Source of the DNA: Candidatus Zixiibacteriota bacterium
GTDB lineage: Bacteria; RBG-13-66-14; B26-G2; WVWN01
Assembly: GCA_030613505.1 (NCBI GenBank)
Contig: JAUWLW010000059.1
Coordinates: 1-16,002, forward strand
Direction: 5' to 3'
Length of the DNA stretch: 16,002 nucleotides
In this document: piece by piece, positions 6,170 through 11,755 of the stretch
Layout of the letters: every line of letters begins with the position of its first letter
Numbering within the stretch: position 1 is the stretch's first letter
Position numbers and translations under genes: made by a program
The notes under the pieces: generated by a model
Seen by the model: only the letters and a program-made list of their open reading frames with translations
Database searches by the model: none
Told to the model about the DNA's origin: nothing

Positions 6170-6173
6170 AGTG

Positions 6174-6569
6174 ATGGTAGGGAATGACGAACGTACTGAG
6201 CTGGACGAAAAGGAGCGCATCTACCCCATCGGCATCGCGGCGGAGCTTTTGGGCGTGCACCCGCGGACGCTGCGGATATACGAGGACGCGGGTTTGCTCA
6301 AGCCCGCGCGCCGGCGGGGTCGGCGCTACTACACCGAGGCGGACCTGAGCTGGCTGGAGTGCATCCGTCACCTCATCCACGACGATAAGATAAGCGTGGA
6401 GGGCCTAAGGCGGTTAGTCCAGCTTCAGGATTGTTGGGAGATCCGCGGTTGCGGCCGGGGGCACCGCGCCCGGTGCGGCCGGCGGGGAAAGGGCGGCGCC
6501 CACGGGGGCCGCGGAAGAACATCCGAAGACGTTAAACGCGAAATAAACGAAGATGGAAAGGAGGCATAG
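6174..6569 (+). CDS. MerR-family regulator with C-terminal Cys cluster
   Basis: A 131-residue DNA-binding regulator. A MerR-type winged helix spans about residues 18-80: YPIGIAAELLGVHPRTLRIYEDAGLLKPARR, then RRYYTEADLSWLECIRHLIH and ISVEGLRRLV. The HPRTLR helix resembles HspR-type members. After the wing comes DCWEIRGC and a Gly/Arg-rich tail. Cysteines at about 87, 93 and 101 (C-x5-C-x7-C), plus one near 63, could bind iron-sulfur or another metal, fitting the Fe-S genes that follow. The start is ATG 6174 or the adjacent GTG 6171; both lie at the predicted transcription start. The stop is two bases before the next ATG, whose SD lies within this gene, suggesting coupled translation. Confidence 0.85.
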   Translation: MVGNDERTELDEKERIYPIGIAAELLGVHPRTLRIYEDAGLLKPARRRGRRYYTEADLSWLECIRHLIHDDKISVEGLRRLVQLQDCWEIRGCGRGHRARCGRRGKGGAHGGRGRTSEDVKREINEDGKEA

Positions 6570-6571
6570 AT

Positions 6572-6979
6572 ATGCCAAGAGGAGATAGAACGGGACCGGC
6601 CGGCCAGGGGCCGCGCACGGGTCGCGGCATGGGCTACTGCTCCGGTTACGCGACGCCCGGTTACATGAATATCGGCCCGGGCCTCGGCATGGGCCTCGGC
6701 ATGGGCCGCGGTATGGGCGGCGGCCGGGGCGGCGGGGGCCGCGGTTGGCGCAATATGTATTACGCCACCGGCCTCCCGGGATGGGCCCGGGCAGGTTGGG
6801 AGCCGGCGTACAGCCAGCCGCCGGTTGCGCCGTACGGCGTCGCGCCGTACGGCCCGGCGCCTACGGCCGGCGACGAAGCCGAGCTCTTGAACGCGCAGGC
6901 CGAGTACTTCGAGCGGGGGCTCGAGGATATAAAAACGCGCCTCGCCGAGCTCGAGCGCAAGGCCAAGGAAGAGAAGTAA
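6572..6979 (+). CDS. DUF5320 domain-containing protein
   Basis: A 135-residue soluble protein of a family often found beside Mrp/NifX genes; function unknown. The N-terminus MPRGDRTGPAGQGPRTGRG and GYCSGY are characteristic. A Gly-Met-Arg repeat follows (GLGMGLGMGRGMGGG, residues 38-52, from a repeated 12-base unit), then GRGWRNMYYATGLPGW (57-71), a Pro/Tyr linker, and a predicted coiled coil from about 102 to the end (AEYFERGLEDIKTRLAELE). It has one Cys (C23). A strong SD (AAGGAGG) is placed about seven bases before the ATG. Its first codons match those of the zinc-ribbon gene at 9149. The family label is from remembered sequence features. Confidence 0.85.
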   Translation: MPRGDRTGPAGQGPRTGRGMGYCSGYATPGYMNIGPGLGMGLGMGRGMGGGRGGGGRGWRNMYYATGLPGWARAGWEPAYSQPPVAPYGVAPYGPAPTAGDEAELLNAQAEYFERGLEDIKTRLAELERKAKEEK

Positions 6980-6986
6980 GGTAACG

Positions 6987-7013
6987 GGGGCCGGCTCGCG
7001 CCGGCCCCGCTTT
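6987..7013 (+). terminator. Hairpin between the DUF5320 and Mrp genes
   Basis: A perfect 9-bp stem GGGGCCGGC with GCCGGCCCC around a TCGC loop, followed by GCTTTATAT. The U-tract is weak, so it may cause partial termination or stabilise the 3' end of the upstream mRNA rather than stop transcription fully. Confidence 0.5.
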
Positions 7014-7040: not shown

Positions 7041-7991
7041 ATGCCCAAAGACGAAGTAACCGGCAACAAGTCTTCGCCCAAGGAGAAAGTAGCGCGTGAG
7101 CGCTCCGAGCAACAAGCTCAACTCGAAAGGCATATTGGCGCCCGGATGGCTCGGATACGTCACAAGGTATTGATTGCCTCCGGCAAAGGAGGCGTGGGTA
7201 AAACGACGGCTGCGGTAAACCTAGCGGTAGGCCTGGCGGAGGCGGGCGACACAGTCGCACTACTCGACGCCGATATGCACGGGCCGACCGTACCGAGGAT
7301 GCTCGGCCTTGGCGATATCCGACCCGCCGGCGGCGAGGACGGGATCAATCCAGTAACCTACAACGAAAGAATCGTCGTAATGAGTATTGCGTTTCTACTC
7401 CCGCACGACTCGGATGCCGTGATTTGGCGCGGCCCCCTCAAGGGAAAGATGGTGGATAACTTCCTCGCCGATATCGACTGGGGCGAGCGCGACTGGCTCG
7501 TTGTCGACACGCCTCCCGGTACGGGTGACGAGATTCTTTCGGTCGCTCAAAGGATTAAAGACCTCGACGGCCTGATTATGGTTACAACGCCTCAGGAAAC
7601 GGCCGTTGCCTCTGCGTGTAAAAGCCTCACCTTTGCTATCAAGACCAAGACCCCGATCCTGGGCGTAATCGAGAACATGGGCCCGTTTACGTGCCCAAAG
7701 TGCGGTTACAAGATGAGTCCCTTCGGGGAGGGAGGAGGGGAACGCATCGCCGCTGAATTCGGCGTGCCGTTTCTCGGCTCGGTTCCGTTCGACCCGGAGG
7801 TCGTTACGGAGTCCGACAAGGGGCGGCCGCTTCTATTGAGTCAGCGAAACAGCTCGGCCGCGGTGGCTTGGCGCAATATTGTAGGGGAAGTCCGCGGCTT
7901 AGTGACCGGCCGGGCCGGGCCCGACCATGACCCCCCGAAAGCGGAAAACAAAACGGCGATGAGCGGGGAGTTACAGCCCCGGAGCAAATAA
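7041..7991 (+). CDS. Mrp/NBP35-family Fe-S cluster carrier ATPase
   Basis: A 316-residue P-loop ATPase of the Mrp/ApbC/NBP35 family, which binds a 4Fe-4S cluster at a dimer interface and passes it to target proteins in the cytoplasm. Visible motifs: the deviant Walker A SGKGGVGKTT at 47-56, LLDADMHGPT (74-83), VIWRGPLKG (128-135), the Walker B-like VVDTPPGTGDE (154-164), and ENMGPFTCPKCG with the CxxC pair C218/C221. GGAGG stands four bases before the ATG. The N-terminal 40 residues are a charged extension. Codon use is less GC-rich than in the MinD genes downstream, with more GTA, ATT and TCT-type codons. Its stop runs into an AAGGAGG that once served the broken gene that follows. Confidence 0.94.
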   Translation: MPKDEVTGNKSSPKEKVARERSEQQAQLERHIGARMARIRHKVLIASGKGGVGKTTAAVNLAVGLAEAGDTVALLDADMHGPTVPRMLGLGDIRPAGGEDGINPVTYNERIVVMSIAFLLPHDSDAVIWRGPLKGKMVDNFLADIDWGERDWLVVDTPPGTGDEILSVAQRIKDLDGLIMVTTPQETAVASACKSLTFAIKTKTPILGVIENMGPFTCPKCGYKMSPFGEGGGERIAAEFGVPFLGSVPFDPEVVTESDKGRPLLLSQRNSSAAVAWRNIVGEVRGLVTGRAGPDHDPPKAENKTAMSGELQPRSK

Positions 7992-7995
7992 GGAG

Positions 7996-8700
7996 GCGGC
8001 CGGCGGCGAACCAACCTTCGATATTAACCTGGGCAAGGGAATCGAATCGCTTAAGTCGTTGGGGAGCGAAGTTGCGGTTATCTCGAATTAGTCTCTCGTA
8101 TAGCGAGCCGACGTACGGTACGATTTACATAAGGTCCGTTGGGTATCTTTAAAAATCGATACGCCCGATCCAGAAATACGGCTTCGGGTCAACAGGTCGC
8201 ATGGGGCGTTAGTAAATAATCAAATTTTCTGGCGTATTTCGCGTTTCGCAGGGACGCACCGCGGGGGATTAGTAACGGAAACGATGCCGGTTCGAGGTAT
8301 TAACGACGACGGGAGAGTATTAAGGTAAGTTGCAGCGTTTATTACCGGTTTAAACTCTAGGAGGAGTTATATATCGATACCGACGCGACCTCCGGCGGAG
8401 AAAGAAGTTGACCCGCCTACGTAGCATAAGCTACACTCAGCCTACCAGGTTTTTAGCGAGGCGGGAATAAAAACGGAATACTCAATCGGATACGAGGGCA
8501 ACGCGTTCGGTTTCACCGGGAACGCCGAGAGCGACCTTATTAGTATTGCCGCCGTACGTCCGGTGAAGAAAGATAGCGTCGTCGAGTTGCTTGAGAAGGC
8601 CGGCGCGAAGTGGGCTGTCTTAGATAAATTAATAAGATCAAGGTGTACTGTTACGGTCGGAATATCGTGGAAACGTTTTTTACTTAAAGAAATCGAATAA
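7996..8700 (+). pseudogene. Radical SAM protein relic (COG0731-like), 5'-truncated, four internal stops
   Basis: One reading frame can be followed from about 7996 to TAA 8698-8700 without a frameshift. It matches the middle and C-terminal parts of a radical SAM family often found in Mrp/NifX clusters: GGEPTFD, VAVISN, RADVR, WVSLKID, LVTETMPVRGIND, YISIPTRPPAE, HSAYQVF, GYEGNAFGFTGNAESDLISI, LLEKAGAKW and a final KRFLLKEI. In-frame stops lie at 8089 (TAG), 8101 (TAG), 8326 (TAA) and 8422 (TAG). The N-terminal part with the CxxxCxxC iron-sulfur motif is missing; GGEPT follows the SD AAGGAGG by about ten bases. Base composition has drifted toward AT. Family assignment is from memory of conserved motifs. 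Confidence 0.85.
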
Positions 8701-8760
8701 GAAGTCGCGTAAATCGGGCTAGTGCGCCCGGATCACACGATCGTTGTAAGGAGGTTTTTC

Positions 8761-9126
8761 ATGAAAGTAGTCGTTACCGCCGCGGGCGGCGACCTCGACG
8801 CTGAGGTAGACCCGCGTTTCGGCCGGGCCCCGTATTTCCTGGTAGTGGAGACGGACGATATGTCGTTCGAAGCCGTCGAAAACGCCGCGGCGGACGCCTC
8901 GGGCGGCGCCGGCATCCAGGCGGCGCAGACGGTGGCCGGCGCAAGCGCGAAGGCGGTTCTCACCGGTAACTGCGGCCCGAATGCCCACCGGACCCTTCAA
9001 GCGGCCGGTATTGCGGTAGTGGTCGGCGTCGCGGGGACGGTGCGCGAGGCGGTGGAACGGTACTTGAAGGACGAATACGCCGAGGCGGAGGGGCCCAACG
9101 TCGAGGGCGGCTTCGGCTCAAGATAG
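8761..9126 (+). CDS. NifX/orange-protein-like metal-cofactor protein
   Basis: A 121-residue protein of the dinitrogenase Fe-Mo cofactor family (NifX/NifB-C-terminal/NafY, also orange protein ORP). Members bind Fe-Mo-S or Mo-Cu-S clusters in the cytoplasm. Visible: MKVVVTAAGGDLDAEVDPRFGRAPYF, then SGGAGIQAAQTVA and LTGNCGPNAHRTLQAAGIAV with C71. No nitrogenase genes are in the window, so an ORP-like role with the two MinD-like ATPases downstream is more likely than nitrogen fixation. ATG 8761 has AAGGAGG nine bases ahead (8748 region). A small hairpin CGGGC/GCCCG lies at 8715-8730. Confidence 0.9.
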   Translation: MKVVVTAAGGDLDAEVDPRFGRAPYFLVVETDDMSFEAVENAAADASGGAGIQAAQTVAGASAKAVLTGNCGPNAHRTLQAAGIAVVVGVAGTVREAVERYLKDEYAEAEGPNVEGGFGSR

Positions 9127-9148: not shown

Positions 9149-9376
9149 ATGCCAAGAGGACAAGGACAGGGTGGCGGCGGCGGGGGCTCCGGTCAAGGCG
9201 GCGGCTCCGGGCAAGGCCGGGGCGGCGGCCGCGGCTTGGGCGGCGGCTCCGGCCTCGGGCCCGGCGGCAACTGCGTCTGCCCGAGCTGCGGGGCCACCGC
9301 ACCCCACAAGCAGGGCGTTCCCTGCTACCAGGAGAAGTGCCCCAAGTGCAACGCGCCGATGACGCGCGAGCGGTAG
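9149..9376 (+). CDS. Small Gly-rich zinc-ribbon protein
   Basis: A 75-residue protein in two parts. Residues 4-40 are almost only Gly with Gln, Ser and Arg. Residues 41-75 carry six cysteines, NCVCPSCGATAPH (C42, C44, C47), PC (C59) and CPKC (C64, C67), arranged like a zinc ribbon or rubredoxin-like knuckle pair. Proteins of this kind are common in Mrp/NifX clusters, but no function is established that I know of. A clear SD (AAAGGAG) precedes the ATG. The opening ATGCCAAGAGGA is identical to that of the DUF5320 gene at 6572, suggesting common origin of the N-termini. The stop is 12 bases from the next start. Confidence 0.85.
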   Translation: MPRGQGQGGGGGGSGQGGGSGQGRGGGRGLGGGSGLGPGGNCVCPSCGATAPHKQGVPCYQEKCPKCNAPMTRER

Positions 9377-9388
9377 GGGCGCAAATAA

Positions 9389-10234
9389 ATGCTCGTCACG
9401 ATCGCCAGCGGCAAAGGCGGAACCGGCAAGACGACGATCGCGGTCAACCTCGCGGTGGCGGCCGCGGCCGCCGGCCTACCCGTCACGCTGCTCGACTGCG
9501 ACGCCGAGGACCCGGACTGCCACATCTTCCTGCGGCCAGAGGGCCTTACGCTCGAGCCCTTCGCGGTCGAGGTGCCGGCCTTCGCGCGCGACCTGTGCGA
9601 CTTCTGCGGCCGCTGCGGCGAGGTGTGCCGCTTCAACGCCATCGCGGCGTTGAAGGACGACGTGCTCATTTTCCCGGAGGTTTGCCACAGCTGCGGCGGC
9701 TGTTGGGAGGTCTGCCCGCGCGGCGCGCTGAAGCCGGCGCCGCGGGTCGTGGGCGAGATCCGCCGGGGGAGCGCGCGCGGCGTGGCGTTCGTGGAGGGGC
9801 GCCTCACGGTGGGCGAGCGCACGCCGGTCCCCATAATCCGCGAGGTGAAGCGGCGGGCGGCGAAAGACGGCCTTACGATCGCGGACGCGCCCCCCGGTAC
9901 CGCCTGCCCCATGGTGGCCGCGGCCCGCGGCAGCGACGTCGTCCTCCTTGTGACCGAGCCGACCCCCTTCGGCCTGTACGACCTGAAGCTCGCGGCCGCG
10001 GTCGCGCGCGAGCTCGGCCTCCGCCGCGCCGTCTTCGTAAACCGCGCCGGCGAGGGCGAGGAAGAGCTGCGGGCGTACTGCGCGGCCGAAGGGCTGGAGA
10101 TATGGGGGACGCTACCCGACGACCGGCGCGCGGCCGAGGTCTACGCCGGCGCCGGCCTTATCGTCGACGAGCTGCCCCACTACCGCCGCGTTTTCGAGGA
10201 CCTCCTCGCGCGGCTCGACGGCAGGCCGGAATGA
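9389..10234 (+). CDS. MinD/ParA-like ATPase with two 4Fe-4S motifs (A)
   Basis: A 281-residue deviant Walker ATPase with an inserted ferredoxin domain. Walker A is SGKGGTGKTT (residues 7-16); LLDCDAEDPDCH follows (35-45). Two CX2CX2CX3C motifs are intact: C70, C73, C76, C80 and C99, C102, C105, C109, the pattern for two 4Fe-4S clusters. IADAPPGTACPM is the Walker B/switch II region and VTEPTPFGLYDLKL is typical of the group. Homologous pairs occur in orange-protein operons and are thought to act in metal-cluster assembly or electron supply. No SD precedes ATG 9389; translation may be coupled to the gene before it. Its last codons overlap the next gene at ATGA (10231-10234). Confidence 0.93.
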   Translation: MLVTIASGKGGTGKTTIAVNLAVAAAAAGLPVTLLDCDAEDPDCHIFLRPEGLTLEPFAVEVPAFARDLCDFCGRCGEVCRFNAIAALKDDVLIFPEVCHSCGGCWEVCPRGALKPAPRVVGEIRRGSARGVAFVEGRLTVGERTPVPIIREVKRRAAKDGLTIADAPPGTACPMVAAARGSDVVLLVTEPTPFGLYDLKLAAAVARELGLRRAVFVNRAGEGEEELRAYCAAEGLEIWGTLPDDRRAAEVYAGAGLIVDELPHYRRVFEDLLARLDGRPE

Positions 10235-11085
10235 AAGAACTCGTCATATTGAGCGGCAAGGGCGGCACCGGTAAGACGAGTTTTGTCGCGGCGTTCGCGA
10301 CGCTTGCCGCACCCGTGGTCGTCGCCGACGCCGACGTCGACGCGCCGGACTTGCACATCCTGCTGGGGCCCGAGCTGCGCTCGCGGCGGGAGTTCCGCGC
10401 CAGCTCCGAGGCGCAAATAAGGCCGGAGGATTGCACGGCGTGCGGCCGGTGCCTCGAGCTGTGCCGCTTCGACGCCATAAGCGAAGACTACGTCGTCGAC
10501 GCCACGGCCTGCGAGGGCTGCGGCGTGTGCGTGGACTTGTGCCCGGAGGAGGCGATCGACTTCGTCGAGAAGGTCGCCGGCGAGTGGTACCTGTCGCGGA
10601 CGCGCTTCGGGCCTATGGCGCACGCGCTCCTCAAGCCGGGCGGGGAGAACTCCGGCAAGCTCGTGGCCGTGGTCCGGAAAGCGGCCCAGGCCCTCGCCGC
10701 GGAGGAGAAGCTGCCGCTTATCCTGGTGGACGGGCCGCCCGGCGTCGGCTGCCCCGTCATATCGTCGGTGACGGGGGCGACCGCGACGTTAATAGTCGCG
10801 GAGCCGACGTTGACCGGCATCCAGGGTTTCACCCGGGCGGCGGACCTGGCCGCGCACTTCGGCGTCCCGGCGGCGGTAGCCATAAATAAGTTCGATATCC
10901 ACGAGGAGAACGCGGCGGCGCTGGCGCGCGAGGCCGAACGCCGCGACATTCCCGTCGTGGGCCGCGTCCCCTACGACGACGCCTTCACCGCGGCGCAGCG
11001 CGAGCGAAAAACGGTGGTCGAGTTCGGGGGGGCGGCGGCGGAGGCGGTCGAGGGGATATGGCATCGGTTGGGTGCCTTCCCGTAA
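10231..11085 (+). CDS. MinD/ParA-like ATPase with two 4Fe-4S motifs (B)
   Basis: A 284-residue paralogue of the preceding ATPase, with which it probably forms a heterodimer. Walker A SGKGGTGKTS is at 8-17, VADADVDAPDLH at 31-42. Ferredoxin motifs are complete: C68, C71, C74, C78 and C94, C97, C100, C104. VDGPPGVGCPV and AEPTLTGIQGFTRA follow, then AVAINKFDI and the C-terminal AAQRERKTVVEFGG. ATG 10231 overlaps the stop of the previous gene by four bases, the sign of tight translational coupling; the frame is open far upstream but that part overlaps gene A. The segment 10986-11022 is repeated almost exactly in the relic downstream. No clear terminator follows the stop. Confidence 0.93.
   Translation: MKELVILSGKGGTGKTSFVAAFATLAAPVVVADADVDAPDLHILLGPELRSRREFRASSEAQIRPEDCTACGRCLELCRFDAISEDYVVDATACEGCGVCVDLCPEEAIDFVEKVAGEWYLSRTRFGPMAHALLKPGGENSGKLVAVVRKAAQALAAEEKLPLILVDGPPGVGCPVISSVTGATATLIVAEPTLTGIQGFTRAADLAAHFGVPAAVAINKFDIHEENAAALAREAERRDIPVVGRVPYDDAFTAAQRERKTVVEFGGAAAEAVEGIWHRLGAFP
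10986..11022 (+). repeat. 37-bp direct repeat, copy 1 (inside MinD-like gene B)
   Basis: Matches 11606-11642 at 36 of 37 positions, the only difference being G at 10995 versus C at 11615. It encodes the TAAQRERKTVVE region of the ATPase. Confidence 0.9.
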
Positions 11086-11257: not shown

Positions 11258-11443
11258 ATGAGGGTAGAACTAGTGAGGGGCAAACACGGCGAAACCGGGT
11301 TTACAATGACCCCCGAGAACGAAGCTGATAAAAGCGCTTTCGAGGAGTGGTGTCATCTCTTGGCCCGCCCCTGGGACGTAACGGTTTACGAGTATGACGA
11401 AAAGGGAGAGCATCTTATCAGCTTAACGTATTTCGCGAAATAG
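11258..11443 (+). CDS. Small hypothetical protein (61 residues)
   Basis: Not recognised. The product is a small acidic-to-neutral soluble protein, MRVELVRGKHGETGFTMTPE at the N-terminus, then FEEWCHLLARPWDVTVYEYD and a C-terminal beta-like LISLTYFAK. It has one Cys, no signal peptide and no membrane segment. ATG 11258 is preceded at eight bases by a good SD (AGGAGAGG, 11242-11249); an alternative GTG at 11249 would overlap that SD. The gene stands alone between the Fe-S cluster and the MinD relic. Its lower GC content differs from both neighbours and hints at a separate origin. The SD and codon pattern make it likely to be real. Confidence 0.65.
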   Translation: MRVELVRGKHGETGFTMTPENEADKSAFEEWCHLLARPWDVTVYEYDEKGEHLISLTYFAK

Positions 11444-11474: not shown

Positions 11475-11730
11475 ACCGGTTTCCCTTTCGCAGGGGTCGC
11501 GATTAACAAGTCGGATTTAGGCGCCGAAAATACCTCGGCTATTGAGCGGGAGGCCCCGCGCCAGGGCGTTCCCCTCGTCGGCCGTTTTCCCCACGACCCC
11601 TCGTCCACCGCGGCCCAGCGCGAGCGAAAAACGGTGGTCGAGACGGGGGGCGGCGCGGCGGCCGAGGCGCTGGCCGAAAATATGGACGGCGTTGGCGGGT
11701 TTCTTGGACGAATGCGCCTGAGCCAACGAC
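11475..11730 (+). pseudogene. C-terminal relic of a MinD-like Fe-S ATPase
   Basis: The frame opening after TAA 11472 reads GVAINKSDLGAENTSAIERE, VPLVGRFPHD, then TAAQRERKTVVETGGGAAAEAL. It aligns with the last 80 or so residues of the intact ATPase at 10231 (AVAINKFDI, IPVVGRVPYDD, TAAQRERKTVVEFGGAAAEAV). There is no start codon, P-loop or ferredoxin part. Toward the end a shift of frame would reach TGA at 11719. This is a 5'-truncated remnant of a paralogue or of a duplicated copy. It is followed directly by a strong terminator. Confidence 0.8.
11606..11642 (+). repeat. 37-bp direct repeat, copy 2 (inside the MinD relic)
   Basis: 36 of 37 bases equal to 10986-11022, with 27 consecutive identical bases at 11616-11642. 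The sequence on both sides is far less alike. Confidence 0.9.
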
Positions 11731-11731
11731 G

Positions 11732-11755
11732 GCCGCCCCCCGGGGCGGCTTTTTT
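11732..11755 (+). terminator. Strong intrinsic terminator after the MinD relic
   Basis: Stem GCCGCCCC (11732-11739), two-base loop, GGGGCGGC (11742-11749), then six T. It is an exact 24-base copy of 6085-6108. It separates the Fe-S cluster from the DUF2723 gene. The rest of 11756-11825 shows no further feature. Confidence 0.88.

Follow-up and report, generated by a model that had tools for sequence, protein, structure and literature searches.

The closest described counterpart of the locus analyzed here is the orange protein (ORP) complex cluster of Desulfovibrio, which includes MrpORP (PMC6345978). The two have in common a NifX/ORP-domain protein, an Mrp/NBP35 P-loop protein, and two MinD-like 4Fe-4S ATPases. 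In Desulfovibrio the Mrp and ORP domains are fused in MrpORP and the ORP/MrpORP cluster is laid out as divergent operons under sigma-54 control, whereas here the two domains are encoded by separate genes and all genes share one orientation, with a MerR-type gene at their head. Radical SAM proteins (PF04055) are likewise encoded near Mrp, NifX and MinD genes in anaerobic bacteria and archaea. For genes that have lost their function, a described set of Salmonella pseudogenes (PMC2916853) offers a comparison: premature stops and deletions are among its inactivating changes, and short indels are common.

Here, we describe a cluster of this type in a window of 16,002 nucleotides (the whole stretch of DNA that was analyzed) from a Candidatus Zixiibacteriota bacterium. 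Between its Mrp and NifX genes lies what is very probably a radical SAM enzyme gene that has been inactivated and is decaying, and as such an ordinary pseudogene; the rest of the cluster is intact.

An orange-protein-like cluster

The cluster reads, in order, MerR, DUF5320, Mrp2, the radical SAM remnant, NifX, zinc ribbon, MinD1 and MinD2. The genes around the remnant are:

6171..6569, + strand: MerR-type regulator, the cluster's first gene
6572..6979, + strand: DUF5320 gene
7041..7991, + strand: intact second Mrp/NBP35-type iron-sulfur carrier gene (Mrp2)
8761..9126, + strand: NifX/orange-protein-domain gene, preceded by a GGAGG ribosome site of its own at 8750
9149..9376, + strand: gene for a small cysteine-rich (zinc-ribbon-like) protein
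9389..10234, + strand: MinD/ParA-type ATPase with 4Fe-4S motifs (MinD1)
10228..11085, + strand: MinD/ParA-type ATPase with 4Fe-4S motifs (MinD2)

An ORP/NifX-domain gene, two genes for MinD-like 4Fe-4S ATPases and an Mrp/NBP35 gene, the set that marks an orange-protein cluster, are all present. Mrp2 matches one half of the MrpORP model NF041136 and NifX the other, as separate genes and below its cut-off; these matches and the 4Fe-4S ATPases give the cluster its resemblance to the Desulfovibrio orange-protein cluster, to whose genes the DUF5320 and zinc-ribbon genes found here were not matched. A NifX-type gene is also carried by 18 of 80 related radical SAM loci, and at an Acetothermia locus an Mrp gene precedes the radical SAM gene by 35 bases.

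A radical SAM gene remnant with four in-frame stops

The frame that runs from position 7996 comprises 235 codons, is interrupted only at 8089, 8101, 8326 and 8422, and ends with a TAA at 8698. The residues given for the stops are those found at the same positions in an alignment of 84 intact relatives:

7992..8001, + strand: presumed deletion junction, at which only a few bases separate a Shine-Dalgarno-like GGAGG (7992-7996) from the GEPT codons
8002..8697, + strand: radical SAM pseudogene remnant, the C-terminal ~232 codons from the GEPT motif on, with four internal stops
8089..8091, + strand: in-frame stop TAG; Ala/Ser in most relatives
8101..8103, + strand: in-frame stop TAG; Trp in 67 of 84 relatives
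8326..8328, + strand: in-frame stop TAA; Lys in 39 of 84 relatives
8422..8424, + strand: in-frame stop TAG; Glu in 80 of 84 relatives

The remnant matches an intact 320-codon gene of the same genome with E = 1.9e-64 (48% identity over 228 residues) and is 43-53% identical to 80 loci from many phyla of bacteria and archaea; judged from these alignments, its similarity to radical SAM enzymes is far beyond chance. Its score against the Pfam Radical_SAM family (PF04055) is 18.8 bits, under the gathering threshold of 29.5, as expected because the iron-sulfur part is missing; by the same alignments, homology by descent is clear despite this score. The GGE-type SAM-binding motif is kept as GGEPT at 8002-8016. 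With the PF04055 proteins encoded near Mrp, NifX and MinD genes, the remnant shares this GEPT motif and a gap-free C-terminal stretch of 230 codons; it differs from them in its four stops, its lost conserved residues and the absence of both a start and the CxxxCxxC motif. The 230 codons align without a gap to the genome's own intact homologue, and relative to 65 of the 84 intact relatives, whose gap status it shares, the remnant has no net indel. Because the radical SAM family itself rarely has indels, a gap-free match across phyla is less striking than it first appears.

An earlier, sequence-only reading had described this stretch as a radical SAM gene preserved in a single frame with four stops (TAG, TAG, TAA, TAG) and undisturbed by any indel, and both descriptions hold. 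Its further statement that stops sit where relatives have Trp, Lys or Glu applies to three of the four, the stop at 8089 replacing Ala or Ser, and the homology begins at 8002 rather than at 7996, where that reading had placed it. The CxxxCxxC-bearing part that it reported as a missing N-terminal half is indeed gone, but what is lost is about the first quarter of the gene, roughly 80 of 320 codons.

Neither a CxxxCxxC motif nor an open frame with a start, both expected of a functional radical SAM gene, is found in the remnant, which lacks the start codon together with the first ~80 codons. Its homology starts 10 bases past the stop of the upstream Mrp gene. With Mrp2 ending at 7991, GGAGG at 7992-7996 and homology from 8002, a deletion seems, as judged from this one sequence, to have taken everything from the ribosome site to the GEPT codons. 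A sensitive tblastn search found no N-terminal part of the radical SAM gene anywhere within the window, and relocation of this part to another place in the window was rejected on that result.

Loss of constraint

In the alignment of 84 intact relatives, 47 columns are near-invariant (at least 95% conservation). The remnant departs from the conserved residue at nine of them (19%), compared with 2.6% on average and 12% at most for the intact relatives themselves, and it forms the longest end branch in a maximum-likelihood tree (1.28 changes per column against a median of 0.25). Its average identity to the family is reduced from end to end, and a comparison of identity by position revealed no segment spared from decay. 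Base composition has shifted as well, with a G+C content of 0.49 in the remnant against 0.59 in the upstream Mrp gene and 0.64-0.75 in the other cluster genes. When intact relatives were mutated in silico without selection, about nine conserved-residue losses were reached at about 0.1 changes per site, with a mean of 1.7-3 stops; the four stops and nine losses jointly fit about 0.05-0.15 neutral changes per site.

Differences at codon positions 1, 2 and 3 number 98, 69 and 151 for the remnant and 85, 69 and 161 for two working family members. This likeness suggests that most of the remnant's divergence probably arose while the gene still worked, and that its decay is comparatively young. At the indel:substitution ratios of bacteria, about 0.10-0.36 as calculated from PMC4978911 (Table 1), about 35-70 neutral substitutions should come with at least three small indels, and the remnant has none. 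Since such ratios also count slippage in repeats, and since the number of neutral changes is a rough estimate, we regard the missing indels as a weak anomaly.

The cluster in related genomes and the origin of the remnant

In a genome of the same genus (G001), the merR-DUF5320-NifX-zinc ribbon-MinD1-MinD2 series is present at 83-86% DNA identity, with DUF5320 followed directly by NifX and neither an Mrp nor a radical SAM gene between them. Homology between the window and this genome ends after a hairpin at 7008 and restarts at the NifX ribosome site at 8750. A 100% complete genome of the same class (G005) encodes DUF5320, zinc ribbon, NifX, MinD1 and MinD2 without an Mrp or radical SAM gene in this group, and a search of that genome gave no match to the remnant's radical SAM family. 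The sequence-only reading had stressed the loss of this gene while all its partners remained intact and had asked whether the cluster works without it. The flanking genes are intact, but the status of partner is doubtful: given the G001 cluster, the Mrp and radical SAM genes seem to be an additional pair and not part of the core. The question is largely answered by these two genomes and by the intact homologue elsewhere in the genome. The simpler reading is that this lineage gained the pair; its loss in the other lineages could still account for the pattern, because DUF5320 and NifX flank an Mrp gene in at least one archaeal locus (L108).

An intact copy elsewhere in the genome, for which the same reading had proposed to look, does exist: the full-length homologue of 320 codons is found on contig 6, outside the cluster. 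We reject the remnant as a recent duplicate of it, as the contig 6 copy is 85% identical to the G001 copy and the remnant is 47-49% identical to either. In the free tree the remnant falls in another part of the family, apart from the contig 6 copy, yet a grouping of the two is not rejected by an AU test (p = 0.237). The remnant may thus be an old duplicate or may have come from outside. A search for solved structures related by sequence to the contig 6 homologue returned none.

Inactivation history and alternative explanations

The remnant combines disabling changes with lost constraint at conserved residues, as bacterial pseudogenes do, and it is known from one genome, a draft assembly in 100 contigs. 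Like the Salmonella pseudogenes it has premature stops and a deletion; unlike them, it has no short indels. We propose that a radical SAM gene followed the second Mrp gene in an orange-protein-like (Mrp/NifX/MinD) cluster, to which the Mrp-radical SAM pair would have been added in this lineage. The radical SAM gene would then have become dispensable, a deletion would have removed its start and iron-sulfur-binding part, and the rest would have drifted without selection while the flanking cluster genes remained intact. Gene loss had already been suggested from the sequence, with point mutations coming first; the loss fits our results, whereas that order does not follow from them, as the start and ~80 codons were also deleted and a single sequence does not record whether the deletion or the stops came earlier.

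Several accounts would have the stretch do something still, or never have been broken. Remaining selection could have held the frame free of indels, for example if ribosomes translating parts of it kept transcription from ending ahead of NifX and the MinD genes, but we consider this very unlikely. We give slightly less credence to a remnant that serves the NifX-MinD part as a small RNA or an untranslated leader, or that acts through a peptide from a segment of the frame. The frame without net indel and the open final 91 codons before 8698 fit such a role; against it, an Rfam scan gave no match, the strand folds much as its shuffled versions do (z 0.18), the remnant has decayed throughout without sparing any segment, no open reading frame of at least 70 amino acids with a start lies in the remnant's frame, and the same-genus G001 manages without it. 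The earlier suggestion of a fragment useful as RNA finds no support in these results.

That suggestion's companion, use through readthrough, fares no better. Three of the four internal stops are TAG, as readthrough or recoding to a functional protein might favor, but the fourth is TAA, so no single recoding rescues the frame, and TAG terminates intact neighbors such as NifX and the zinc-ribbon gene. Nine of 47 near-invariant residues would still be altered, and with the start and CxxxCxxC part missing, radical SAM chemistry is not expected; we judge the chance of such a protein to be close to nil. An assembly or consensus error that makes an intact gene look broken, to which the draft state of the genome lends some color, is hardly more credible: it would have to create four stops, a lost N-terminus, many conserved losses and a composition shift, yet not one frame error, a pattern unlike that of sequencing errors.

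A decaying pseudogene is the reading that we prefer. This Mrp/NifX/MinD cluster does not require the radical SAM gene, as close relatives keep the cluster without one, and pseudogenes of this type mark dispensable accessory genes in poorly understood anaerobic iron-sulfur clusters.

Other features of the locus

Downstream of MinD2 lies a second truncated gene:

about 11491..11690, + strand: C-terminal tail of a MinD2-like 4Fe-4S ATPase, without a start

Over 50 residues this tail shares 62% identity with the intact MinD2 that closely precedes it, and the terminator that follows it at about 11732-11755 corresponds to the one directly after MinD2 in G001. Two front-truncated remnants in one cluster suggest the ongoing decay, at this site, of an additional or rearranged copy of the cluster. 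Between MinD2 and this tail, at 11258-11440, lies a 61-residue open reading frame (MRVELVRGKHGETG...) of which no second copy was found in the genome.

The genome (G000) has a second Mrp gene on contig 8 (35530-36408), 67% identical to Mrp2. Mrp2 groups with the genus's own Mrp proteins (support 100/99) on a longer branch (0.38 versus 0.03-0.18), and its differences from Mrp1 fall mostly at third codon positions (72, 52 and 172 at positions 1, 2 and 3). This grouping and the third-position excess point to Mrp2 being, most likely, a working gene. Mrp2 carries an extra C-terminal tail of about 20 residues, and its third-position G+C is 0.68, compared with 0.82 in the contig 8 copy. Between DUF5320 and Mrp2, a strong G+C hairpin at 6987-7008, followed by CTTTATATG, may be an attenuator or terminator; the same hairpin is found in G001, ahead of NifX.
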